From positions 1,423,001 through 1,487,000 of the forward strand of contig NZ_CP116967.1 of assembly GCF_032050975.1 (NCBI RefSeq): 64,000 nucleotides of DNA, read 5' to 3'. Of this stretch, positions 12,794 through 30,026 are shown piece after piece; the first letter of the stretch is position 1, and the number at the start of each line of letters is the position of its first letter. The position numbers and the translations under genes were made by a program. Below the pieces are notes generated by a model. That model made no database searches. It saw only the letters and a program-made list of their open reading frames with translations, and was not told the origin of the DNA. This DNA is from Candidatus Nitrospira allomarina. GTDB taxonomy: Bacteria; Nitrospirota; Nitrospiria; Nitrospirales; UBA8639.

Positions 12794-12916
12794 AGTTAGA
12801 CCAAATGCTTGACAGGCAATAGCAGCTATGGGAAGATTTTGTTTAGTCATGTCAGAATTTGGACATTTTTAGTTATTCCCCAACAATACGTTAGGTTCTT
12901 CAAGAAAGGATGCCCA

Positions 12917-14813
12917 ATGTCCTTGCTAAAAAGGATTGAAAGTCCAGCAGATTTAAAGAAACTTTCTCGGGACCAATTCCCTGAACTTTGTCAGGAAATT
13001 CGGGAACTCATTATAGAGGTAATCTCCCATGTGGGGGGGGCATTTGGCCTCCAATTTAGGCGTGGTGGAGTTGACGGTGGCTTTGCAGTATTTATTGAAC
13101 ACGCCAGACGATAAAATTGTCTGGGATACCAGTAATCAGGCTTACACACATAAATTATTAACGGGCCGTCGTGAACAATTCCATACGGTCCGCCAGTTCG
13201 GGGGAATAAGCGGATTTTGTAAACGAGAAGAAAGCATCTATGACACGTTTAATGCCGGACATGCCGGAACCGGTGTGTCCGCTGCCGTGGGCTTTGTGGA
13301 GGCACGTGAGCAATTAGGCAAGTCCAATAAGGTCGTTTGCGTCGTAGGAGACGGGGCACTCACTGCCGGAATGACATTGGAAGGATTGCAGCATGCCGGA
13401 GATATGGGCCGGGACTGTGTGGTGATCCTTAATGATAATCAAATGTCGATTTCACGAAACGTCGGAGCTATTTCCGCCTATCTTAATCGGACCTTTACCG
13501 GGGAGTTCTATACAAGACTTCGTGAGGAAACCTCTCAACTCCTGGAAACCATTCCGCAAATTGGAGAACCCGTAAAGCGAATGGCGATTCGGGCCGAAGA
13601 GCTGGCCAAAGGCTTACTGCTCCCGGGTCTGCTATTTGAAGAGTTGGGATTTCGATATGTCGGTCCCATTGATGGACACAATTTTGAGCATTTACTCCCG
13701 ACGTTGGAGAATGTTTTGAAATTAAAAGGGCCAACTCTCCTGCATGTGATTACCAAAAAAGGATTGGGTTTTCAGCCGGCAATGAAGAATCCTGTTTGGT
13801 TCCATGCCTGTTCACCGTTTGATTCAAAGACTGGGCAACCGATGAAAAAGCCCGGTCACCCTTCGTATAGTTCTATTGCTGCTAAAACCCTGATTCGTCA
13901 AGCCAAAAAAGATAACCGGGTGTTGGTCATTACGGCTGCGATGTGCGAGGGAACGGGAATGTCTGAGTTTGAAAAGGAATTTCCCTCCCGTTTGATTGAT
14001 GTCGGGATTGCCGAGCAGCATGCGGTGACATATGCAGCTGGTCTCGCCGCGGATAATATGCGGCCGGTTATCTGTATGTACTCGACCTTTCTGCAGCGGG
14101 CCTATGATCAGGTTGTGCATGATGTGGCAACCCAAAATCTGCCGGTGACCTTTTGTATTGATCGGGGAGGATTGGTGGCCGAAGACGGAACGACCCATCA
14201 TGGGGCTTTTGATTTTGCGTTTCTGCGGCATGTTCCCAATATGGTAATTATGGCCCCAAAAGATGAAAATGAACTCCAACATATGGTCCAAACAGGATTA
14301 GTGCATGATGGTCCGGTGGCGGTTCGATATCCTCGCGGTAGTAGCCTTGGGGTGCCTTTAGATTCTGAACCCATTCCCCTTACTATCGGCCAGGGTGAGC
14401 TATTATCCGATGGGCGAGATGTGGCTATTATCGCAATTGGGGTTATGGTCTCGGAGGCGATGAAAGCGGCTGAGCGCTTACAAGAAGAAGGCGTATCCGT
14501 GGCTGTCATTAATGCACGTTTTGTGAAGCCGCTGGATAAAACCCTTATTCGAGAAATTGCCAACAAAGTAAAATGCTTAATTACTGTCGAAGAAGGGTGC
14601 CGAATGGGCGGATTTGGATCTGCGGTCCTAGAATTTTTATCGGAAGAGGAATGTTGGAGTATTCCGACTAAAGTACTCGGATTACCAGATTGGTACATTG
14701 AACAAGGGCCTCAGGATTTGCTCAGGGAAAAATACGGTCTCACGGCGGATGGGATTTATGATCAGGCCAAGGCGTTACATGACCGGGTTTCTCTGCAAGC
14801 AGTGATACGCTAG
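12917..14813 (+). CDS. dxs: 1-deoxy-D-xylulose-5-phosphate synthase, with a +1 frameshift near the 5' end
   Basis: Condenses pyruvate and glyceraldehyde-3-phosphate to DXP, entry to the MEP isoprenoid pathway (thiamine diphosphate enzyme). The N-terminus (MSLLKRIESPADLKKLS to ISHVGG) is read from ATG 12917, but the next conserved part (HLASNLGVVELT onward) is in another frame. The break is in eight Gs at 13033-13040; seven would restore one 631-residue protein, the normal length. Other marks: GDGALTAGMTLEG (ThDP site), the EDGTTHHGAFD loop, and the C-terminal transketolase domain. As Dxs is normally essential in MEP users, a homopolymer error is the simplest explanation, but phase variation or slippage is possible. 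ispG follows after 9 bases. Confidence 0.93.
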
Positions 14814-19154: not shown

Positions 19155-20870
19155 TTGAATACACTGAATCGAAGTCTATGGATAATTCTAGCGTTGGGCC
19201 TATGCGGTGGGGCTGCTGCCTTTGGGCAAGTTCCGGATGCTCCACTTGTGGACTTTCCTTATTCGGGAAATCGAACGGCGGTGTGGGTCGTCGCTCAACT
19301 TCATATTTTGTTCGCGGCGTTTATATTAGGTGCTCCAATATTTGCGGTGGTAGCAGAGTGGCTGGGATATAAGAATAACGATCCCAAATATGACCGTCTG
19401 GCCAAGGAAGTTATTAAGGTGACGGTCATCTTATACAGCATGACTGCCTTAACCGGAGGGTTGTTTATTTTTGTCCTACTCGGGACGTATCCTGACTTTT
19501 CGACATGGTTGATCAAGCATTTTTTCCTTGTGTTTGCGGTTATCTATCCTCTGTTATTTATCCTTGAAACCATTATCTTGTATACCTACTTCTATTCATG
19601 GGATTCCATGAAAGGAGCGAAGAAAGGACGCCACATCGCTCTTGGTATTCTGTTGAATATTGTGGGAACCGTGACTCTCTTTGTCATTGACGGTCCAACC
19701 TCTTTCATGAATACCCCGGCCAAAGCGGCGGGAGATTTATCATTAGTAGAGTTTATCCAGACCGCCAGTTTGTGGGATAAAATGGCGAATTTTAGCTGGA
19801 TGCCCCTGAACCTTCATCGCCTGGTTGGAAATGTCACGTTTGGTGGGTTTATCGCCGGTCTAATTGCGGCCTATATGTTTATGGGATCAAAAACAGATGA
19901 GGAGCGAGCCTATTACGACTGGATGGGATTTGTGGGTAACATGATCGGGGTAGGGGCGCTTCTGCTTCTTCCGTTCATGGGCTACCTCCTGGCCTATGAG
20001 CTCTGTGACTATGATGCCTCGATTTGTCCCTACATGATGGCTGATCAGTTGTCGATGTTCTTTGAAATGCAAGGTGCCATGGTCGGCCTCATCTTCCTGG
20101 CCAGTAACTATTATATCTGGCTAAGTCTAAAGCGAATACAGGGTGTTGAACAGGTACGGATATCCGGATTTGTGGCGGTAGTGGTGCTGCTCATGCCTGC
20201 CATTATGGGATTTACATGGAAAATGTTCCCTCCGCCTGAATGGCAATCGTTAATTGTCTTAGTGATAATAGTCGTCCTCCCTATGATTCTTGCTAAAGTT
20301 CCTGGTCTCAAGAACTTCACGGTATCGGCATTTACCATGATCAAAGTTGGCTTTTTGATGATTGTGGTGGCCGATGCGATTTGGATGACCCCTCATGGTT
20401 TCGTCCCGACCCAAGGGCTGGCCACCGAGGAAGTCGAGCTGCCTTCTTGGGCAAGTGAATTAGCGCTCATGCCGGCAAAGAATGCTGCAGCCTTTACTCT
20501 CGTATTCCTGACTGTGGTCAATTATCTGCTTTATAACCGCGCCATTAAGCGAGGGACGATTGTATGGGGGAAAATTGATTTTGCGTCCCAGTTCGTCCTC
20601 ATATTTCTGGCTTTTAGCGCCATTTGGACAATGGGCCTCATGGGGGCGGTACGCTCGTTAACTCGTAAATATTATCATGTCTATAACCTCGTTCCCGATT
20701 TTACTCCTGAAGCGTTTACGCCGACTCTGGCCTACTCGGCCTGGTGGATAACGGGGGTGACTATCGTGTTTTACGCTGTCGTAAGTTTTGCCATCCTTGT
20801 CACGCTGAGAGCGGGAAGTCCGAAGCCGGCTACGTCATTGGCATCGTCAGTACCGGTTGAAGCTAAATGA
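19155..20870 (+). CDS. Cytochrome bd oxidase subunit I-like protein, copy A
   Basis: 571 residues, TTG start nine bases after AAGGAGGG. An N-terminal signal-like segment is followed by many membrane helices. CydA features: His50 in QLHILFAAFILG (matching E. coli His19, heme b595), Glu138 in FILETIILYTYFYSWD (matching Glu107) and His221 in NLHRLVGNV (matching His186, heme b558). The position of E. coli Glu99 holds a non-acidic residue, and the GRQPW Q-loop motif is absent; the region reads VADAIWMTPH (Trp410-His414). No cydB accompanies it. It could be a bd-like terminal oxidase, as proposed for Nitrospira, or a quinone/heme subunit of a composite complex. Confidence 0.85.
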   Translation: MNTLNRSLWIILALGLCGGAAAFGQVPDAPLVDFPYSGNRTAVWVVAQLHILFAAFILGAPIFAVVAEWLGYKNNDPKYDRLAKEVIKVTVILYSMTALTGGLFIFVLLGTYPDFSTWLIKHFFLVFAVIYPLLFILETIILYTYFYSWDSMKGAKKGRHIALGILLNIVGTVTLFVIDGPTSFMNTPAKAAGDLSLVEFIQTASLWDKMANFSWMPLNLHRLVGNVTFGGFIAGLIAAYMFMGSKTDEERAYYDWMGFVGNMIGVGALLLLPFMGYLLAYELCDYDASICPYMMADQLSMFFEMQGAMVGLIFLASNYYIWLSLKRIQGVEQVRISGFVAVVVLLMPAIMGFTWKMFPPPEWQSLIVLVIIVVLPMILAKVPGLKNFTVSAFTMIKVGFLMIVVADAIWMTPHGFVPTQGLATEEVELPSWASELALMPAKNAAAFTLVFLTVVNYLLYNRAIKRGTIVWGKIDFASQFVLIFLAFSAIWTMGLMGAVRSLTRKYYHVYNLVPDFTPEAFTPTLAYSAWWITGVTIVFYAVVSFAILVTLRAGSPKPATSLASSVPVEAK

Positions 20871-20894
20871 GTAGGTTGAAAAAAGAGGAAACAA

Positions 20895-21707
20895 ATGGCT
20901 AACCAGAGTTTTGCCAAGAGTGTCATGAAGAAGACCGCCGTGGGGGTCATTATTGGGCTGTTGTTGGTGGTGGGCGCTAAATACACCCATTTCCCACCAG
21001 TCTTTCAGATCATGTTTTTTCTTTACGCGATACTAGGGGCTTTGGTGTTCATTCTTTTAGATGCTCCAGCGATGAAACGGTTGGAAGGTGTGAAGGCGGT
21101 GGGGGCGTTGGTGGTATTTTACCTCCTGCTTTCTGGTCTCTATATCGCCGGAGCGTCGATTCTGCCACAGTTTGACCCGGAGGATGAGAAGGGAAAAATT
21201 GAAAAAGTTTTGAAACTTCGCCGGGCCCAAACAGAGCAAGGGAAGGCCGATGAATTAATTGCCAGGGCAAAGGAATTGGATGAACGGGCTAAAGCTATTT
21301 CGAAGCAACTGAGTTCTTTAGGTGCTGATGCTAAAGTTGAGGTGGCGGTTGCAACCAGTGGAGGCGGGGGTGGAGCAGCCTCCGGCGATCTCGTGGCCAT
21401 TGGGAAAGAACAATGGGAACTACAAGAATGTTATAACTGCCATAAGCTGTATGGACAAGGTGGGAAAAAACGTGGGCCTGAGATGGATAATATCGGTAAT
21501 CTTATGACCGTTGAACAGTTGAAAGAAAAGATTATTGATCCAAAGAGTTGGAAAGCAGAAGGGTTCGATAAGGATTACGATAAAGGGAAAATGCCTGATA
21601 AGTATAAAGATCTCATGTTCCCACAAGAAATTGATGCGCTTGTTGCCTTTCTTGCCTCGTTAAAAGACGAGTCAGTTAAAACTCCGAAGCCAATAAAAAT
21701 GAATTAA
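20895..21707 (+). CDS. Membrane-anchored cytochrome c with coiled-coil linker
   Basis: 270 residues. Three hydrophobic segments fill the first ~90 residues, then a charged helical linker (about 95-145, rich in Ala, Lys, Glu), a Gly run (GGGGG at ~156-160) and a C-terminal cytochrome c domain with CYNCH (Cys179, Cys182, His183). Starts 24 bases after the CydA-like gene and 25 before the Rieske gene, so it is a likely subunit of the same complex. Its membrane part resembles that of the cytochrome at 27383-28111 in layout (a DAPAM/SAPSL turn between helices), hinting at duplication. Confidence 0.88.
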   Translation: MANQSFAKSVMKKTAVGVIIGLLLVVGAKYTHFPPVFQIMFFLYAILGALVFILLDAPAMKRLEGVKAVGALVVFYLLLSGLYIAGASILPQFDPEDEKGKIEKVLKLRRAQTEQGKADELIARAKELDERAKAISKQLSSLGADAKVEVAVATSGGGGGAASGDLVAIGKEQWELQECYNCHKLYGQGGKKRGPEMDNIGNLMTVEQLKEKIIDPKSWKAEGFDKDYDKGKMPDKYKDLMFPQEIDALVAFLASLKDESVKTPKPIKMN

Positions 21708-21732
21708 TCAACATCTGAGGTTTTTCCTGGCT

Positions 21733-22677
21733 ATGCAACCAAAATTGACAGCAAAAGCATTGTGTGCGAACAAGGAAGTCGGGAAGATTTCTAAGGTTAT
21801 TGTTGATCCACTTTCCCACGAAATCAGCCATATCATCGTTCAAGAATTGAATGGCCACGGTGCGCAACGCCAGATTCCTATTGACCAAATTCAGGAAGTA
21901 GTGAGCGAGGAGGAAATTGTCCTTCGGTGTTCACCCGAAGAATTCGGTCAATTTCCCGTACTGGAGCGAGATCAGTATGTGACGATTAAGGAAGTTGAAA
22001 TTGCCCATTTGGAGGATCATTTGCATGTTGAACCTGGGGAGATTTTGGTCCCTCTTCCACGATTGGAGCAAGGGGTACCCAGGCGCACATTTTTTACCAA
22101 TATGACACATGCGATTGGGACCTTAATTGCCCTGCCCTTAGTGTTTCCTGTGTTGAAGTATCTCATGAAACCCATGTTCAAACCCTACGATAATGCCTGG
22201 TTTTCCGTGGGCAACGTAAAGAAGGTGAATAAAGAGAATATTGGCTTCCAATTTAAATTTACCCGTGGATTTAAAGAAGCCTTTATGCCAGAGCAACAGA
22301 TTGAGAAAAATATTTGGGTGGTCAAGGCGACTCCGGCCGTACAACAAGCCGTATACGAGGGAAATGATAAGAAGTTTTATGATGATAAGGGGGATGTCAT
22401 TTGGGTTAACAAGTCAAATTCTCCCTATATCGGCTACTCTGGGAAATGTCCCCATTTGGGTTGTGGGTATAAATGGAGGAAAACAAAAAACTTTCCAGAT
22501 GGGGTGTTTTTGTGCCCTTGTCATCTGAGTATTTATGACGAAGCTGGAAAAGTTATCGACGGGCCGGCACCGAGACCGCTTGATGTACTTCCTCTGAAAG
22601 TTGATGCCGGTGGAGAAGTGAAGATCATTGATGTTGAGTATAAAGCCGGGGTTAATAACCAAATTCGGCTTCTGTAA
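21733..22677 (+). CDS. Rieske [2Fe-2S] protein with N-terminal PRC-barrel-like domain
   Basis: 314 residues. Residues 1-~110 form a PRC-barrel-like region (GKISKVIVDPLSHEISHIIV, then IPIDQIQEV). An internal twin-arginine motif (PRRTFF, Arg117-Arg118) precedes the membrane anchor (~128-145), so the N-terminal domain should stay in the cytoplasm while the cluster domain is exported by Tat. Cluster ligands: Cys239/His241 (CPHLGC) and Cys261/His264 (CPCH), with Cys244-Cys263 for the disulfide. The second box continues LSIYD instead of the usual GS. It is followed by cytochrome b, so it belongs to a bc1/b6f-type quinol-cytochrome c reductase. Confidence 0.92.
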   Translation: MQPKLTAKALCANKEVGKISKVIVDPLSHEISHIIVQELNGHGAQRQIPIDQIQEVVSEEEIVLRCSPEEFGQFPVLERDQYVTIKEVEIAHLEDHLHVEPGEILVPLPRLEQGVPRRTFFTNMTHAIGTLIALPLVFPVLKYLMKPMFKPYDNAWFSVGNVKKVNKENIGFQFKFTRGFKEAFMPEQQIEKNIWVVKATPAVQQAVYEGNDKKFYDDKGDVIWVNKSNSPYIGYSGKCPHLGCGYKWRKTKNFPDGVFLCPCHLSIYDEAGKVIDGPAPRPLDVLPLKVDAGGEVKIIDVEYKAGVNNQIRLL

Positions 22678-22705
22678 AAGCCTAGGATGGAATGGTGAAA
22701 GGCGC

Positions 22706-23818
22706 ATGAAGGAAGACAGTCAAGTCGCAAGTCAACAAAACGCTTTCGAAAAGGTTGTTGAATTTGTTGATGAGCGTGTAGGTCTGAAGAATATACAGGC
22801 CAAAATGCTGAATGAGCCAATTCCTGGTGGTTCTCGCTGGGCCTATGCTTTTGGCTCCGTATTGCTATTTATCTTTGTTCTTCAAGTTGTCACGGGGATA
22901 CTGCTGATGTTCTATTATGTCCCCAGTACCGATCACGCTTACGCAAGTACACAATATATTATACACGAAGTGGACTATGGGTGGTTTCTTCTGAGCTACC
23001 ATTTTTGGGGATCATCTGCCATGGTAGTGATGGTCTTCGCGCATATGTCCCAAGTATTTTTATGGGGTGCCTATAAAAAACCCAGAGAACTGGTCTGGTT
23101 AGTCGGCTTGGCTTTATTTGGCATTGTGATGGGTTTTGGTTTTACAGGTTATCTCCTCCCATGGGATCAACGCGCATACTGGGCAACGGTGGTTGGCGTA
23201 GAAATCATGGATAAAACTCCAATTGTAGGGGATTTTTTGGCTCGTTTTCTTAAGGGGGGTCCCACTCCAGGGCAAATGACCTTAAGCCGGTTTTTTGTTA
23301 TTCATGTCATGGTCTTGCCGGCTGCCTTAGCGGGGCTGGCTGGCCTTCATATTTTTCTTTTTAGAAAGGCTGGGCCCGCAGGTCCGTTTAGAGGCACACC
23401 AGAGGAAATTAAGGCCAAAACGGATTACTTTTTCCCGCGTCAAATCTGGAAAGATATTGTGGCCATGGCCACAGTTTTTTTAATCATTTGCTCCCTTGCT
23501 TTCATTGAGCCAGTCGTGTTGCTGGAACAAGCGACTCCGGATCCCGGCGATTATCATCCTGAGCCAGAGTGGTATTTCTTGTTCTTGTTTCAGTTGCTTC
23601 GATTGAAAATTTTTGGCGGGGAGTTTGGCCAATTTCTTGGAGCTATGGCCATACCAGGGGCATTTATGGCGTTTTTAGCGGCCCTGCCTTTTTTGGACAC
23701 AAGTTCGGAGCGAAATATCTTTAAGCGGCCAATGGCTCTTATTGGTTGGACGGTGATTATGGTTTTTATTCTGGTGTTTACCGTGTCAGCCATTATAAAC
23801 CGCCACTTTTTAGACTAA
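22706..23818 (+). CDS. Cytochrome b of a bc1-type complex
   Basis: 370 residues from ATG 22706, 28 bases after the Rieske stop; an open extension to 22628 would overlap the Rieske gene and lacks family residues. Heme ligands: a His pair in YHFWGSSAMVVMVFAHMSQ and another in IHVMVLPAALAGLAGLH. The PEWY motif of the quinol oxidation site is present (HPEPEWYFLFLFQLL), so the b6-like and subunit IV-like parts are in one chain. Shorter than mitochondrial cytochrome b by one or two helices. With the Rieske protein it forms the quinol-oxidising core of the cluster. Confidence 0.94.
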   Translation: MKEDSQVASQQNAFEKVVEFVDERVGLKNIQAKMLNEPIPGGSRWAYAFGSVLLFIFVLQVVTGILLMFYYVPSTDHAYASTQYIIHEVDYGWFLLSYHFWGSSAMVVMVFAHMSQVFLWGAYKKPRELVWLVGLALFGIVMGFGFTGYLLPWDQRAYWATVVGVEIMDKTPIVGDFLARFLKGGPTPGQMTLSRFFVIHVMVLPAALAGLAGLHIFLFRKAGPAGPFRGTPEEIKAKTDYFFPRQIWKDIVAMATVFLIICSLAFIEPVVLLEQATPDPGDYHPEPEWYFLFLFQLLRLKIFGGEFGQFLGAMAIPGAFMAFLAALPFLDTSSERNIFKRPMALIGWTVIMVFILVFTVSAIINRHFLD

Positions 23819-23831
23819 TCTCTGGGAACAT

Positions 23832-24728
23832 ATGTCAAATACGAAGTTAGGGCTTTTAGTTTTCTGGCCTACATTCTGGACCGGGTTTCCAATAAAGATG
23901 GTGGTTGCCTTATTGTTGCTAGCGGCACATATGCATCCATGGGAGGGAAGCGGACTTTTTCTATTGTTACTTGTCTCCATACCCGTAGATATTTGGGCTC
24001 TTGGTTTATGTGCGAGAACCGTATTTATCGATAGGTTAAAGGTTAATCCGAAACCAGGTTTTGGTCTTCATCTTTGGATCCGATGGGTAGCCTTTAGTGC
24101 TCTGGCATTACCACTCATCATGATCGTGGTGTCCGCAGTGACGGAAACCGCTCAGTCGGTGGTTTCCAGTATTGTTGAATCAATTAAAGAGAATATATTC
24201 GTCATTCCCGTCGCTGAACAGATTAGTCTTGAGCTGGTGATGTGGGGGAGTGTGTCGTCTATTGTTCTTATTCTTTGTATATTAGGGTGGTTGTATGGCC
24301 TAGGGTGGCTTGCTCAACCATTTGTAAGAAATGCGACACCGGTAAAAGGGTCAGCAGTGGACCAGGCTAGTTTCTGGGACAGCTTACGTATACCATCGGA
24401 CCAGCCTCTTCTCCTAACCGCATTTACCGGGGCGGGGGTAGTACTCGTGTTTCTCTTTTGGGTTCTCCTGCCTCCTACAACACCACACCCACATGAAGAA
24501 TATGTCTATACTTTTGAAAAAAAAGGAGTGGTCAAAGTTGAGCCCCAAAAGGTATTGAAGGAAGCGGAGCAAGTTCTGGCCAACGCGGAACTTGTGGTGA
24601 GTAAGCTTCAGGAGGAAAAGTCTGGAGATACAAAAACGTCTTTAGAAGCTGGCGAAATTTCACCTAAGGCCATACCGGAAAATAAGACTGACAAGCGACC
24701 TTCAGTAGAGGATGGGGGGAAACCCTAG
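23832..24728 (+). CDS. Integral membrane protein of unknown function
   Basis: 298 residues with about five hydrophobic helices: ~20-35, ~40-60, ~85-105, ~135-155 and ~195-215. After the last helix comes PPTTPHPHEEYVYTFEKKG and a charged C-terminal tail likely outside the membrane. No cofactor motif (no CxxCH, no paired heme histidines in helices) is clear, although His residues in LAAHMHPWEG and PPTTPHPHEE could bind metal. I do not recognise a family. It starts 13 bases after cytochrome b and ends 65 bases before CydA-like B, so it is probably a structural subunit bridging them. Confidence 0.8.
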   Translation: MSNTKLGLLVFWPTFWTGFPIKMVVALLLLAAHMHPWEGSGLFLLLLVSIPVDIWALGLCARTVFIDRLKVNPKPGFGLHLWIRWVAFSALALPLIMIVVSAVTETAQSVVSSIVESIKENIFVIPVAEQISLELVMWGSVSSIVLILCILGWLYGLGWLAQPFVRNATPVKGSAVDQASFWDSLRIPSDQPLLLTAFTGAGVVLVFLFWVLLPPTTPHPHEEYVYTFEKKGVVKVEPQKVLKEAEQVLANAELVVSKLQEEKSGDTKTSLEAGEISPKAIPENKTDKRPSVEDGGKP

Positions 24729-24793
24729 ACAAGGTTTGTGGGCTCTGGTGAGGAGCCTTGAACAAAATAATGAACGATCGAAGGGGGGCCAGA

Positions 24794-26656
24794 ATGACAT
24801 CGGCCGGCCAATTACGACATGCAACCGTTGTGCAAGGAATGAATAGAATGCCTGGATTGCTTAAATTTGGAAGTTTTTTGGCCCTTCTCTTTCTCCCGGC
24901 TTTGGCCATGGCGGCTGGAGGTGCGGAAATTCAGGCCATGTCGGTTGAATATCGGGATGTACCTGGAATCGGTAGCCGTAACCTGGTATGGGTGGTCGCC
25001 CAGCAACACCTGCTGCTGGCTGGGTTCGTTTTAGGTGTTCCGATTTTTGCCTGGATATGCGAGTTGGTGGGATGGAAAACCAAAGAACAACGGTATGACA
25101 AGCTCGCCAAAGAGTTTACAAAGCTCCTAACTTCAGCATATGCCACCACCGCCCTCTTCGGCGGAATCCTTCTGTTCCTTCTGATCGGACTCTATCCAAA
25201 GTTGATGGCCTACCTGACTGATATGTTTTTCCCTTCCTTCCTTGTCTATTGTCTACTCTTCTTATTGGAAACGGCTACCCTGTATATGTATTGGTATGGG
25301 TGGGATTATATGCAGGGAAATAAAAAGACTTTCCATCTTTTTTTAGGTTTTCTTTTAAATCTTTTTGCCCTCGGAATCATGATCGTCCCTAACTCATGGG
25401 CAACCTTTCAGGCTAGTCCTGTGGTGGTAGGGGATGGAGATGCTTGGGCTAGGGCCTGGATGGCTATGCAAAACCCAACCTGGTGGCCTGTCAATATCCA
25501 TAGATTGATCGCCAACGTGGTGTTGGGTGGATTTATAGTCGGAGCGTATGCGGGTGTCCGCTATTTACTCGCGGTATCACGTGAAGAGCGGGAGCACTAC
25601 GATTGGATGGGGTATGTCGGGAATTTTATTGGTGTGTTTGGTATGTTACCTCTCCCATTTGCCGGCTATTGGCTTATGCGGGAGGTCTACCAATACAACC
25701 AACAAATGGGGATTACCCTTATGGGTGGTTTCTTGGCATGGCTGTTTATCCTTCAGGCTATGCTCATTGGAGTGCTTTTCCTCGGAGCCAACTATTATTT
25801 TTGGTTGGGAATTACCCACCGAATTCCAGGGTCTGAAAACCAATATAAAAAACCGGTTATGGGGATGTTGATCGTCCTGTTATTGTGCCTTGGTGTGTGG
25901 ATGACTCCGCATTCCTTAGTGGCGAGCTTGGCGGAAGCACAAAAAATGGGTGGTACCCACCATCCTTTACTCGGGGTGTTCGGGGTGATGTCCGCAAAAA
26001 TGACCGTGTCCAATATCATGATCCTCGTAACGTTTATGAGTTTCATTATGTATTGGCGGGCGGGAAAACAAGAAACCGCAGGATGGGCCAAAGCTGCCAA
26101 GGCTATTATGGGAGGCTTACTGGTTATCGCAGGTATCGCCGTCGTGGTGCTTGGGGTATGGGGATATTTTGTCCCAGCCATTATCCGTATTAATTATTTC
26201 TCGGTTGCCCAGGTGTTAATTGTGCTGTTCATCATGGTTACGTTCACCCCATTAACCGCTTTGTTAATGAAAAGTGCTAAAACGACAACGGAAATGGTGT
26301 GGGGAAAAATGCCAATTCGAGCAGGATATAGCTTGGTGCTAAATGCAGTGATGGTGATTTTGCTCATGTCCCTAATGGGATATGCACGATCATCATCTCG
26401 GGTGCACTGGCACATTTATGGCGTCATGAGAGATACCTCGGATTATGCTTATTCACCTGCGCTAGGGTATGCGGCGGCATTTATGTCCCTTAATACATTT
26501 GTATTTTGCCTGATCGTCGCGTTTATATTTTGGGTGGCGACCTTGGGTGATAAGGCCAAATCTCAGCCACCAAAGGGATCTGCCATGGAGATTCCTGGCC
26601 ACACCGCTCCGGCAATGGCTGGTGGTGCACCGAGCTCAGGGGAAAAGCTTGAATAG
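24794..26656 (+). CDS. Cytochrome bd oxidase subunit I-like protein, copy B
   Basis: 620 residues from ATG 24794 (AAGGGGGG five bases upstream); a TTG at 24758 would add 12. A cleavable-looking signal (FLALLFLPALAMAAGG) precedes the helices. CydA ligands counted from 24794: His72 (QQHLLLAGFVLG, b595-type), Glu159 (FLLETATLYMYWYGWD), His236 (NIHRLIANV, b558-type). As in copy A the second channel Glu and GRQPW are missing and the motif WMTPH (369-373) appears. The segment before WMTPH is LLLCLGV, with no acidic residue where E. coli has Glu445. It is a divergent paralogue of 19155-20870, also without cydB. Confidence 0.85.
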   Translation: MTSAGQLRHATVVQGMNRMPGLLKFGSFLALLFLPALAMAAGGAEIQAMSVEYRDVPGIGSRNLVWVVAQQHLLLAGFVLGVPIFAWICELVGWKTKEQRYDKLAKEFTKLLTSAYATTALFGGILLFLLIGLYPKLMAYLTDMFFPSFLVYCLLFLLETATLYMYWYGWDYMQGNKKTFHLFLGFLLNLFALGIMIVPNSWATFQASPVVVGDGDAWARAWMAMQNPTWWPVNIHRLIANVVLGGFIVGAYAGVRYLLAVSREEREHYDWMGYVGNFIGVFGMLPLPFAGYWLMREVYQYNQQMGITLMGGFLAWLFILQAMLIGVLFLGANYYFWLGITHRIPGSENQYKKPVMGMLIVLLLCLGVWMTPHSLVASLAEAQKMGGTHHPLLGVFGVMSAKMTVSNIMILVTFMSFIMYWRAGKQETAGWAKAAKAIMGGLLVIAGIAVVVLGVWGYFVPAIIRINYFSVAQVLIVLFIMVTFTPLTALLMKSAKTTTEMVWGKMPIRAGYSLVLNAVMVILLMSLMGYARSSSRVHWHIYGVMRDTSDYAYSPALGYAAAFMSLNTFVFCLIVAFIFWVATLGDKAKSQPPKGSAMEIPGHTAPAMAGGAPSSGEKLE

Positions 26657-26716: not shown

Positions 26717-27355
26717 ATGAGTGAAGTCGCGCTATTGCAGATAATCGGCATGTGTGTCATTGGGGTGGGTATCCTCATCCTCTTGTTTATTAAGGGCATG
26801 TTTCTTAGGGTGCTTGGTTTCGTCGCGATGGTGTTGGGAGTCTTTAGCCTAATTGCCTTGAGTGTTCCCCAAATGGCGTCCTTGCCTCCGGCGGTAGAAA
26901 CCTTCGATCTTGCCAGCGTCAAAAGTCCGGATGATTTGGCCTCCATTGGGCAAAAAATATTTTTTAGCAAGGGACAATGTGCGTTATGCCATTCCATTGG
27001 ACCGAGCGAATCGGCCAGATGCCCTGATTTAAATGGCATTGGAGCAAAACTGTCTGCTGAATTTATCTATGAAAGTTTAACCCAGCCTCAAGCCTATATT
27101 TATTTGGACTATAGGCACGATGGTGTTCCAAAAGAATATCCTGCTCAGATGCCCCATATCGACCAGGATCCCATAGGCTTAAGCAAGCAGGAAATTTATT
27201 CGGTTATTGCGTTTCTCCAAAAAATGAGTGGGGAGCCCATCAGTATCAAAGTTGAAGATATAATGGAAACTGTGAAAGAAGCAGCCAATTCTTTAAAGGT
27301 GGCCTCGGTCTCCTCTACACTTACATCCCAATTGCAGAATTTGGCTGATCGATAA
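26717..27355 (+). CDS. Membrane-anchored monoheme cytochrome c
   Basis: 212 residues. Two N-terminal helices (~5-25 and ~30-50) anchor one periplasmic cytochrome c domain with CALCH (Cys88, Cys91, His92). A third Cys in SARCPDLNG lies 15 residues later. Met ligands may come from QMPHI. ATG follows GAGGAAAC, 60 bases after CydA-like B. Expected to carry electrons within the complex or to soluble cytochromes. Confidence 0.88.
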   Translation: MSEVALLQIIGMCVIGVGILILLFIKGMFLRVLGFVAMVLGVFSLIALSVPQMASLPPAVETFDLASVKSPDDLASIGQKIFFSKGQCALCHSIGPSESARCPDLNGIGAKLSAEFIYESLTQPQAYIYLDYRHDGVPKEYPAQMPHIDQDPIGLSKQEIYSVIAFLQKMSGEPISIKVEDIMETVKEAANSLKVASVSSTLTSQLQNLADR

Positions 27356-27382: not shown

Positions 27383-28111
27383 ATGAAAGGTCCTATCATT
27401 AGTGGGGCTATCATTCTTGCTGGAATGTTCATATTTTTGAAATTCCTTCTTCCGTTAGTGACGGCACCTCTTCCAGCCAGCTTAATTTACCTTTATTTGG
27501 CTCTTGTTCTGAGTGGAATTTTGATTTATGGAACCATGAGTGCGCCTTCCTTGGAGGCCATGATGGGGCCAATTTTCAGATTTTTATCGGGGAAAGGACA
27601 AACGGGAGCAGGGCAGATGGCCCGGTTGGCGGTGTTGGTTATGTTCCCTCTTCTGGTGGGGTGGCAAACGTACAGTCGACTGGTCCCTAGCGATCTTCCA
27701 CCTGCCGAAAACAGGACCATTCATCCGGCCCCGCCAGGTGAATTTGTCGGCTTATCGAATCCTTATCCTAAAACCCCTGAGAATATTATGATGGGGAAAG
27801 GCCTGTATGCCGCTTATTGCTCACCCTGCCACGGAGCAAATTATGATGGAAAGGGCCCAGCGGCCCCTGGCTTTAATCCTCCTCCTGCCAACTTTAGTGA
27901 TCCGGGAACTATTGCGCAATTACAAGAGGCGTATTTGTTCTGGAGAATAAAAAAAGGGGGGGTGGGTTTACCTGTAGAAGGAATGCCTTGGAAATCGGCT
28001 ATGCCCAGATGGGAAGAGGAATTGCCAGAAGAGTTTATTTGGAAAATTATTATGGGTGAATATGATGGGGCACACCAATCCCCTCGGACTTGGGAAGAAG
28101 AAGAAGAATAG
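27383..28111 (+). CDS. Membrane-anchored monoheme cytochrome c, three-helix type
   Basis: 242 residues. Three hydrophobic segments (~8-28, ~32-52, ~80-97) then a cytochrome c domain with CSPCH (Cys146, Cys149, His150) and a likely Met ligand in EGMPWKSAMP. The C-terminus is strongly acidic (five Glu). GAGGAGAAT precedes the ATG. The membrane part is laid out like the 270-residue cytochrome at 20895-21707, so each CydA-like protein has such a partner downstream. Confidence 0.88.
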   Translation: MKGPIISGAIILAGMFIFLKFLLPLVTAPLPASLIYLYLALVLSGILIYGTMSAPSLEAMMGPIFRFLSGKGQTGAGQMARLAVLVMFPLLVGWQTYSRLVPSDLPPAENRTIHPAPPGEFVGLSNPYPKTPENIMMGKGLYAAYCSPCHGANYDGKGPAAPGFNPPPANFSDPGTIAQLQEAYLFWRIKKGGVGLPVEGMPWKSAMPRWEEELPEEFIWKIIMGEYDGAHQSPRTWEEEEE

Positions 28112-28155
28112 ACTCAAGCCAATTATGTTGTGGATGAATGAGTGGAGAATATGAC

Positions 28156-28992
28156 ATGTTGAACGGACTAGGAAGCCTCAGGACACTATCCATTATTGGG
28201 CTGTTCGGGGTCCTGGGATTTTCGTCAGCTTTTGCCAATGAACCACCTGCTTCAGATGAGCCAGGAAGTGTCTCGGTTCGATTGTATCAATTAGAAGGCA
28301 GCTTGCCGTCAGAAGACCCAAATTCTTCACAATGGGATACTGTGCCTAGTTCTGAATTTAACCTGGCGCCCCAGGTGCATTGGCCTCCTAGAATCCAGGA
28401 GGTGACTGTGAAGTCGGTCAAGGTCAAAGGGGTTCATAATGGCCAAGAACTGGCTATTCTCGTGGAATATGCAGATCCTACCGAAGATGGCGCCGATGCC
28501 GCAGCACTTGAATTTATGGTGGGTGATAAACCGGCTCATTTCGCGCATGGTCAAGAAATGTTACAGGTTGAAGGGGGACCGGTAAATATTTGGTTTTGGA
28601 AAAATGAAAGTGGCAAGGCAGTTGATATGAGCGCAAAAGGGTTCAAGACCTTGGAAACCCAACCCCATCAGGATGTTCAAGCAAAAGGTATTTGGCAAAA
28701 TGGTATTTGGAAAGTGGTCTTTTCCCGTTTATTGAAAACCGAGGATGCTCAGGATGTGCAAGTTGAGGAAGGCGAATGGCGTAATGTAGCATTTGCCTTT
28801 TGGGATGGGGCGGTTGTCGATGGTCTGGTAAAGGAAAAGGGGGGCCAGAAGGCCGTCTCTACTTGGTGGTATATTCGGGCAGAACCGAGTGCAGATAATT
28901 CCATTTTTGGATGGGTTATTTTAGGGTTAGCCCTCGCAGCGGCCTTTGAATTGGTGATAGTCAGAAAACTGAGAAAGGGGCAACCAGTATGA
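28156..28992 (+). CDS. Periplasmic b-heme protein, ethylbenzene-dehydrogenase gamma-like
   Basis: 278 residues from ATG 28156 (TGGAG eight bases upstream; ATG 28138 is an alternative). A signal peptide ends near FANEPP. The body matches the EB_dh-type heme-binding beta-sandwich found in gamma subunits of DMSO-reductase-family enzymes and in nitrite oxidoreductase NxrC-like proteins: QWDTVP near the start, EVTVKSVKVKGVHNGQELAILVEY, VNIWFWKN and IWKVVFSRLL. A C-terminal helix (IFGWVILGLALAAAFELVIV) anchors it. No molybdopterin subunit is adjacent, so it may be an electron input from another enzyme or a permanent subunit here. Confidence 0.85.
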   Translation: MLNGLGSLRTLSIIGLFGVLGFSSAFANEPPASDEPGSVSVRLYQLEGSLPSEDPNSSQWDTVPSSEFNLAPQVHWPPRIQEVTVKSVKVKGVHNGQELAILVEYADPTEDGADAAALEFMVGDKPAHFAHGQEMLQVEGGPVNIWFWKNESGKAVDMSAKGFKTLETQPHQDVQAKGIWQNGIWKVVFSRLLKTEDAQDVQVEEGEWRNVAFAFWDGAVVDGLVKEKGGQKAVSTWWYIRAEPSADNSIFGWVILGLALAAAFELVIVRKLRKGQPV

Positions 28993-30026
28993 AACGGGTA
29001 GCGGGAGGCGGTCGCGATATGACAGTCATCGGGTTGGCCGTACTCGGAATAACCTTCACGCTATTTTCTGGCTGTGCGCTTTTTGAGGATGAAAGAACGG
29101 CGAAGGGTCGAAAGCTCTATAACCACTATTGTAGTCATTGCCATGGGGAGACCGGTCAACAGGGAGAAGGATTCAATTGGGAGCGCATGTCCGACCCCCG
29201 CCCCAAAAATCTCGCATCTACTGCCGAAATGTCCACTTTCAGTGATGAGGAGATTTTCCATACCGTTTATCGGGACATGAAAGATACCACTGATCAAAAA
29301 GTTATTGATGATGAGAACTATTTTGCTGTACCAACCATGCCAACCTTTAAGTATACGTTATCGGAGGAAGAAATTTGGTCAATTGTGGGATACGTTCGAA
29401 CCCTTCATGGGATGTCGCTGAGCTATGATTTGGAAACAAGAAAGAAGGAATTAGAAGAGGCATTGCAGGTGGCGCAGCAAGAGATGGAAGCCACAAAGGC
29501 CGCCTACGAGGCAGCCGCCGAAAAGGCAGAGGCTGCACAGGCAGCCTATGAAGAAACGTTAACTGATGAGCAGCTTGAAAGTTACGAACCCAAGGAAGTG
29601 ACCATTCCTGAAGAAGAAGTGTTTCTTGCCGCCAATGAAAAATATGAAACGGCAAAAGCCGCCGTTGATAATTTTTTAAAACGACCGAAAAAGCCACAAG
29701 TTGCACGACCTGATCTTTCCATTGCTGAAGAAGACCGCGCGACTCAAGCTAAACTGGGAAAGCAGTTATATAATGATAAATATGGTTGCCAGGGATGTCA
29801 TAGTCTCAACGATGAGGGCGGGGTGGTTGGCCCTGCATTGGATCGAGCAGGCTTTCGCCTCAATCCTACATGGGTCTATCGATGGATTCTATATCCTCAA
29901 GCCATGAAAAAACATACCAGAATGCCAAATTTGGGGATTTCAGAGCCAGATGCAAAGGCTCTCACATATTATCTCGGGACGCTCCAGGCCCCAAAGCCTG
30001 ATAATCAGAGTGCCACGTCAGAATAA
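28989..30026 (+). CDS. Diheme cytochrome c lipoprotein with Ala-rich coiled-coil spacer
   Basis: 345 residues; ATGA overlap with the preceding gene. Lipobox FSGC (Cys29). First heme site CSHCH (Cys48-His52), second CQGCH (Cys267-His271). Between the two domains residues ~150-235 are a charged Ala/Glu/Lys helix (VAQQEMEATKAAYEAAAEKA) likely to be a coiled coil holding the hemes apart. The C-terminal domain has a possible Met ligand (TRMPNLG). It ends the cluster; a stem-loop at 30137-30177 follows. Confidence 0.9.
   Translation: MKRVAGGGRDMTVIGLAVLGITFTLFSGCALFEDERTAKGRKLYNHYCSHCHGETGQQGEGFNWERMSDPRPKNLASTAEMSTFSDEEIFHTVYRDMKDTTDQKVIDDENYFAVPTMPTFKYTLSEEEIWSIVGYVRTLHGMSLSYDLETRKKELEEALQVAQQEMEATKAAYEAAAEKAEAAQAAYEETLTDEQLESYEPKEVTIPEEEVFLAANEKYETAKAAVDNFLKRPKKPQVARPDLSIAEEDRATQAKLGKQLYNDKYGCQGCHSLNDEGGVVGPALDRAGFRLNPTWVYRWILYPQAMKKHTRMPNLGISEPDAKALTYYLGTLQAPKPDNQSATSE

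Follow-up and report, generated by a model that had tools for sequence, protein, structure and literature searches.

CydA-like proteins A and B of a Nitrospira-type respiratory cluster as probable cytochrome c-fed subunits of a bd-type terminal oxidase

A 64,000-nucleotide stretch of the Candidatus Nitrospira allomarina genome (contig NZ_CP116967.1, positions 1,423,001 to 1,487,000; hereafter the window) carries an 11-gene respiratory cluster in which two CydA-like proteins, copies A and B, flank a Rieske/cytochrome b pair. In our reading, A and B are probably the CydA-like subunits, of OR-N1 and OR-N2 type, in the terminal oxidase of Nitrospirales, a bd-type enzyme that would be fed by periplasmic cytochrome c and not by quinol. 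All genes of the cluster (Table 1) lie on the + strand with intergenic gaps of 13-60 bases, and the last two overlap by 4 bases. Both CydA-like open reading frames were confirmed, with PF01654 (CydA) matches at E = 1.4e-15 for A and 4.3e-19 for B. The genome, a single contig of 4.55 Mb, has nine PF01654 matches, of which A and B are among the divergent ones, and two others (L001 and L002) are canonical quinol oxidases with the GRQPW motif.

In canonical CydA, heme b558 is ligated by His186 and Met393, heme b595 by Glu445 and heme d by His19 (PMC8585947). These four residues, as well as Glu99, Glu107 and GRQPW, are invariant among the 31 canonical CydA sequences that served as the reference; the register of the E. 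coli sequence was checked against the known ligand positions. Conservation was counted over 70 homologues of A and 105 homologues of B. The counterparts of His19 and His186 (His50 and His221 in A, His84 and His248 in B) are invariant in all of them, and so is a Tyr at the Glu99 position (Tyr131 in A, Tyr164 in B), a register accounted for by the E. coli-specific Leu101 insertion (PMC6853902). The Glu of the FILE/FLLE helix equals Glu107 in both copies, with Gly, Ser or Thr possible there in relatives; this Glu is never lost in A and B together, the expected number of such cases being below one, and we draw no claim from this. The Q-loop and GRQPW are absent from both copies, no canonical quinol-binding residue is kept, and Glu99 and Glu445 of the canonical quinol-oxidising cytochrome bd (qOR) are Tyr and Ser in both. 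Significant hits in the PDB were confined to bd oxidases, with the N-terminal helices covered in the sequence search and most of the chain in the fold search. The replacements support a predicted loss of the quinol site in A and B and an altered high-spin heme region (Glu99 to Tyr, Glu445 to Ser). Much of this had been anticipated by the initial annotation of the window, which noted the histidines within QLH/QQH and LHR/IHR, the non-acidic Glu99 position and the missing GRQPW, and which suspected altered or lost quinol and heme d sites; its retained FILE/FLLE Glu holds for the two copies, though not for all their relatives.

The same residue states are found in proteins of a gammaproteobacterial order, except for the Glu107 position in one protein. 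Among the OR-N relatives, one sister pair of distant paralogues (L081 8600-10288 and L082 9438-11123) shows a joint replacement, in which the His19 counterpart is Met, the Tyr at the Glu99 position is Phe and the WMTPH His is Arg. This hints that the three residues form one site, and it suggests that one heme site has been lost in these two proteins.

The initial annotation had also placed WMTPH, which occurs in both proteins, at the position of VAE-x-GRQPW and had treated GRQPW as the quinol-loop region. GRQPW is not part of the Q-loop, and profile comparison aligned the C-terminal stretch SRVHWHIYGVMRDTS of B to the canonical GRQPWxVYGVLRT; A aligned likewise. In sub-profile tests, the probability of a match to E. 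coli 425-515 was 74% (E 2.9e-5) for B residues 505-605, versus 0.7% for the WMTPH segment of A and 0.4% for that of B. The C-terminal segment of A tested alone was not significant (0.3%), and the register of A follows from its clear profile alignment with B (E about 1e-100). The canonical E445-x-x-R448 and the RSxxR of A and B are bridged by a divergent pair from the same genome (L007/L101), which reads GWVRESAR and GTIREVAR, and by two members of the A clade with VREL-x-R. Because the profile, sub-profile and bridging-paralogue alignments set the register, the Glu445 position is assigned to Ser in both copies (A501, B545), Arg448 is retained (A504, B548; 13 of 70 A have Lys), and the Arg448 motif is followed by a new His that is invariant (A508, B552). 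The counterpart motif reads R-S-x-x-R-x-x-[WFY]-H-[VI]-Y, with GRQPW itself replaced by SRVHW in B and TRKYY in A.

The fold search yields no residue alignment, and AF2 models were used for helix order only. In that order the RSxxR motif comes after the penultimate helix, the CydA arrangement, whereas WMTPH closes an earlier helix that is inserted at the place of the Q-loop, several helices before the chain end. By alignment and predicted helix order, WMTPH is therefore the end of an extra helix in the segment that replaces the Q-loop and not the counterpart of GRQPW. That it is instead a displaced homologue of GRQPW is very improbable: both contain a Pro and lie near a helix end in the C-terminal half, but the sub-profile scores, the several helices after WMTPH versus one after GRQPW, and the alignment of GWVRESAR and the A-clade VREL-x-R with E445-x-x-R448 all speak against it. 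The motif is nevertheless not a chance resemblance. Its W is invariant (70/70 A, 105/105 B), W-x-TP is found in nearly every A and B and is conserved across paralogues, and its His is present in 105/105 B and 53/70 A, with A, N, S, G or R taking its place in the remaining A. The full WMTPH is not fixed, many A orthologues having WLTPH, and the invariance of His385 of B (the WMTPH His) is confined to B and its closer paralogues. D407 of A (in VADAIWMTPH), which the initial annotation had matched to Glu445, was rejected, as it is Asn in many A orthologues and lies outside the homologous segment. Of the alignment check against canonical CydA, then, the loss of GRQPW and of the Glu99 and Glu445 acids was borne out, and the homology of WMTPH was not.

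The divergent L007/L101 pair (G000:C1:2568887-2570784; L101 8309-10821) consists of overlapping, very divergent CydA-like genes for proteins of 579 and 394 aa, which carry VRESAR and IREVAR; unlike A and B, the 579-aa protein retains Glu at the Glu99, Glu107 and Glu445 positions. The pair adjoins genes resembling NrfD-type and molybdopterin (alternative complex III-like) subunits, and it is possibly the OR-N5 CydAA' reported beside alternative complex III (ACIII) in PMC12342949.

As for the electron donor, 12 relatives carry a c3-type cytochrome c fused to the C-terminus of B (domain E 1e-38 to 3e-62), and their loci (L178, L180-L186, L073-L075 and L175 2666-5014) encode an OR-N2 protein followed by a C-terminal transmembrane (TM) helix and a mono-heme cytochrome c. 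Besides c3, the cluster holds four further c-type cytochrome genes, and the B-c3-c4-Nxr arrangement is kept across distant genomes. The c4 and NxrC-like proteins are fused in three loci (L079, L182 and L184), and a c-type protein beside A in L077 matches both c2 and c1. In L073, L075, L180 and L185, a different, weakly similar Rieske/cytochrome b pair follows the B module. Because these fusions and conserved neighbourhoods support both points, cytochrome c is likely the electron donor of A/B, as had been supposed, and OR-N2 appears to be coupled to a bc-type complex. The quinol chemistry is probably carried by the Rieske/cytochrome b pair, which also counts in favour of cytochrome c as the donor.

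Gene order was compared over 115 loci, many of the incomplete ones being cut by contig ends; Nitrospinota lie outside the sample, as the phylum search returned Nitrospirota genomes. The order c1-A-c2-Rieske-cytb-M6-B-c3-c4-Nxr-c5 is complete in 57/115 loci, and A-c2-Rieske-cytb-M6-B is present in 71/115, including those of N. defluvii (FP929003, L129) and N. moscoviensis (L127), which have both genes in the same order. The tree recovers A as a clade with SH-aLRT 100 and the B orthologues as a second one with 99, in which B groups with the orthologues from N. defluvii and N. moscoviensis. A plasmid search for B gave no match, and one locus (L124) with a protein 84% identical to B probably comes from a mislabelled metagenome-assembled genome.

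The cluster has the same genes in the same order as the bd-like_1/CIII_1/bd-like_2/alt_NxrC_1 cluster of N. moscoviensis (PMC6606698) and the NIDE0901-type locus of N. defluvii, with orthologues about 77-83% identical for B and about 73% for A. We found no meaningful difference from these clusters, the present genome belonging to a sister family within the same order. By sequence, B matches the NIDE0901-like OR-N2 type and A the OR-N1 type, an orthology reached through the N. defluvii and N. moscoviensis loci. With OR-N1/OR-N2 (Murali 2021, cited in PMC12342949 and PMC10839748), A and B share the missing quinol site, the association with cytochrome c and the occurrence as two paralogues; as a difference, B also occurs without A and, in some lineages, fused to its cytochrome c. 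With canonical CydA (E. coli bd-I/bd-II, Geobacillus 5doq) they share the N-terminal helices with His19, His186 and mostly Glu107, as well as Arg448, whereas extra helices replace the Q-loop. The terminal oxidase clusters of Ca. Manganitrophaceae (PMC9040806) likewise combine a bd-like protein, cytochromes and a periplasmic cytochrome b, but differ in partner subunits, and the L175 stretch is without an A orthologue. This stretch (Troglogloeales) has three bd-like/cytochrome modules in a row.

The protein family and its loss of the quinol site are already known, and A and B are members of it. Bd-like proteins of Nitrospina and Nitrospira lacking all quinol-binding residues, with three helices replacing the Q-loop, were described in 2013 (PMC3578206); the OR-N family is regarded as probably cytochrome-c-oxidising (PMC10839748); and the N. 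moscoviensis cluster is highly transcribed and was proposed to form a III/IV supercomplex (PMC6606698). In the literature searched, which did not include Murali 2021 and Lucker 2010, we met neither the residue corrections nor the fusion nor the A-free B modules, and we do not claim them as new.

How A and B work together is less certain. OR-N1 plus OR-N2 has been hypothesised to form a CydAA' heterodimer (PMC12342949, PMC10839748), and in the sampled genomes of the same order A and B are both present, about 5 kb apart. An obligatory heterodimer, in which both proteins are needed for one active site, is compatible with the donor and active site proposed here, and we consider it a serious possibility that falls somewhat short of an even chance. 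Against it, four genomes that are 97-99% complete (G139, G159, G175 and G183) have B orthologues 58-62% identical, with their cytochrome c, and no A orthologue; their best matches to A (E 1e-59 to 2e-64) are no stronger than A-B cross-matches. The B-c3-c4-Nxr module without A also occurs in a gammaproteobacterial order, though other OR-N paralogues could replace A in A-free genomes. Being found without A in near-complete genomes, B does not have to pair with A in every organism. A bolder version, which we hold tentatively and think rather unlikely, is that B is a self-sufficient one-polypeptide cytochrome c oxidase on a CydA fold, with its own cytochrome c (fused in some species), a Tyr at the Glu99 position beside the His19 heme and His552 replacing the Glu445 ligand, A being an accessory electron-transfer link to complex III and not an essential half. 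Outside Nitrospirota, OR-N proteins together with the B-c3-c4-Nxr module were seen in 8/60 genomes of the gammaproteobacterial order (L184/G397, L267-L273).

Two further alternatives assign a different function. A and B might be the arm of a cytochrome c:quinone oxidoreductase (an alternative complex III serving reverse electron flow), the new quinone site being built from the extra helices and the WMTPH loop. An oxidoreductase role was proposed for bd-like proteins in the NXR cluster, anaerobic anammox bacteria have related proteins (both PMC3578206), and W-x-TP is conserved across paralogues. We judge this improbable, however, since the Rieske/cytochrome b pair already present in the cluster has its PEWY site intact, A and B keep none of the canonical quinol-binding residues, and most Nitrospirales, having no heme-copper oxidase, require a cytochrome c oxidase (PMC10579370). 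Slightly less probable still is a copper centre in B (His385, His402 and possibly His550/552) that would make it a heme-copper-like oxidase. Copper-binding sites were suggested for bd-like_2 (PMC6606698), and His385 and His402, variable or missing in A, never change within the B clade; yet both are retained in most other OR-N paralogues and so are not specific to the proposed oxidase, and His401 and His550 are not conserved. No Pfam match to heme-copper subunit I was found, and no heme-copper oxidase is among the significant fold matches of A and B.

In the cytochrome c-fed bd-type oxidase that we favour, B would be the main catalytic subunit, with b558 held by His248 and Met411 and receiving electrons from c3. 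O2 would be reduced at the His84-bound heme, with Tyr164 above it, and the b595 site would be rebuilt, with His552 as a candidate new ligand. A, with c1 and c2, may be the partner that links B to the Rieske/cytochrome b complex. Electrons from nitrite oxidation could enter through the NxrC-like protein and then c4/c3, or, alternatively, quinol electrons could enter via the Rieske/cytochrome b complex. Several points count against this proposal. The counterpart of Met393 could not be fixed, as the sub-profile test was not significant, and Met411 and Met322 of B are equally conserved candidates. Confidence in the AF2 models is moderate (pLDDT 76-77, pTM 0.78), with values largely below 50 in the C-terminal motif, and they contain no hemes. 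We infer the A/B assembly and the supercomplex from gene order only, and we found no published measurement of heme content, O2 reduction or cytochrome c oxidation for the family.

Table 1. Genes of the cluster and residues of interest (window coordinates)
Feature	Position	Strand	Basis or remark
c1, mono-heme c-type cytochrome, one signal/TM helix	18556..19116	+	Cytochrome_CBB3 2.8e-09 (Pfam); CASCH; upstream of A
Copy A, CydA-like, OR-N1-type (bd-like_1), 571 aa	19155..20870	+	PF01654; monophyletic A clade
A His50, homologue of E. coli His19 (high-spin heme ligand)	19302..19304	+	Profile alignment, conservation
A Tyr131, at Glu99 position	19545..19547	+	Register explained by E. coli-specific Leu101 insertion (PMC6853902)
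A WMTPH, residues 410-414, predicted periplasmic end of extra TM helix replacing Q-loop	20382..20396	+	Alignment, AF2 helix order
A RSLTRKYYH, residues 500-508, counterpart of A444-E445-x-G-R448-Q-P-W	20652..20678	+	Profile alignment
c2, membrane-anchored mono-heme cytochrome c (CYNCH)	20895..21707	+	Pfam Cytochrom_C 1.2e-10; directly after A
Rieske [2Fe-2S] protein	21733..22677	+	Pfam Rieske 4e-08; CPHLGC...CPCH
Cytochrome b, PEWY Qo motif	22700..23818	+	Pfam Cytochrome_B 6.8e-50
Membrane protein (M6 in gene order), ~5 TM	23832..24728	+	No known family; position conserved
Copy B, CydA-like, OR-N2-type (bd-like_2), 632 aa	24758..26656	+	PF01654; clade with N. moscoviensis orthologue; cytochrome c fusions in relatives
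B His84, homologue of E. coli His19	25007..25009	+	Profile alignment, conservation
B Tyr164, at Glu99 position	25247..25249	+	Alignment, conservation
B WMTPH, residues 381-385, predicted periplasmic end of extra TM helix replacing Q-loop	25898..25912	+	Alignment, AF2 helix order
B RSSSRVHWH, residues 544-552, counterpart of Glu445-GRQPW region	26387..26413	+	Profile and sub-profile alignment, conservation
c3, mono-heme cytochrome c (CALCH)	26717..27355	+	Directly downstream of B; fused to B C-terminus in 12 relatives
c4, mono-heme cytochrome c	27383..28111	+	Heme motif CSPCH
NxrC-like heme b subunit (DMSO reductase type II gamma family), C-terminal TM	28138..28992	+	EB_dh 7.5e-20; TIGR03477 6.9e-30, below its cut-off
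c5, di-heme c-type cytochrome	28989..30026	+	CSHCH, CQGCH

No CydB was recognised next to A or B: the M6 protein has no Pfam or NCBIfam match, and cytochromes and the Rieske protein make up the remaining neighbours. In distant loci, the M6 counterpart is much shorter (about 90-130 aa) or missing. Elsewhere in the window, a dxs-like gene (12905-13114 and 13029-14813) is split by a frameshift at an eight-G run near 13033; the frameshift may stem from a sequencing error, or the gene may be broken.

Nitrospira-type bacteria account for a large share of global nitrite oxidation, and we found no published purification and characterisation of their terminal oxidase. The residue map, together with the B modules that lack A and the natural fusion of B to cytochrome c, leads to specific tests of the donor, the heme ligands and the subunit need. 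If B is self-sufficient, its active-site Tyr would be convergent with the tyrosine of heme-copper oxidases. The branch to which A and B belong is a third, hardly studied branch of the bd-type oxygen reductases.

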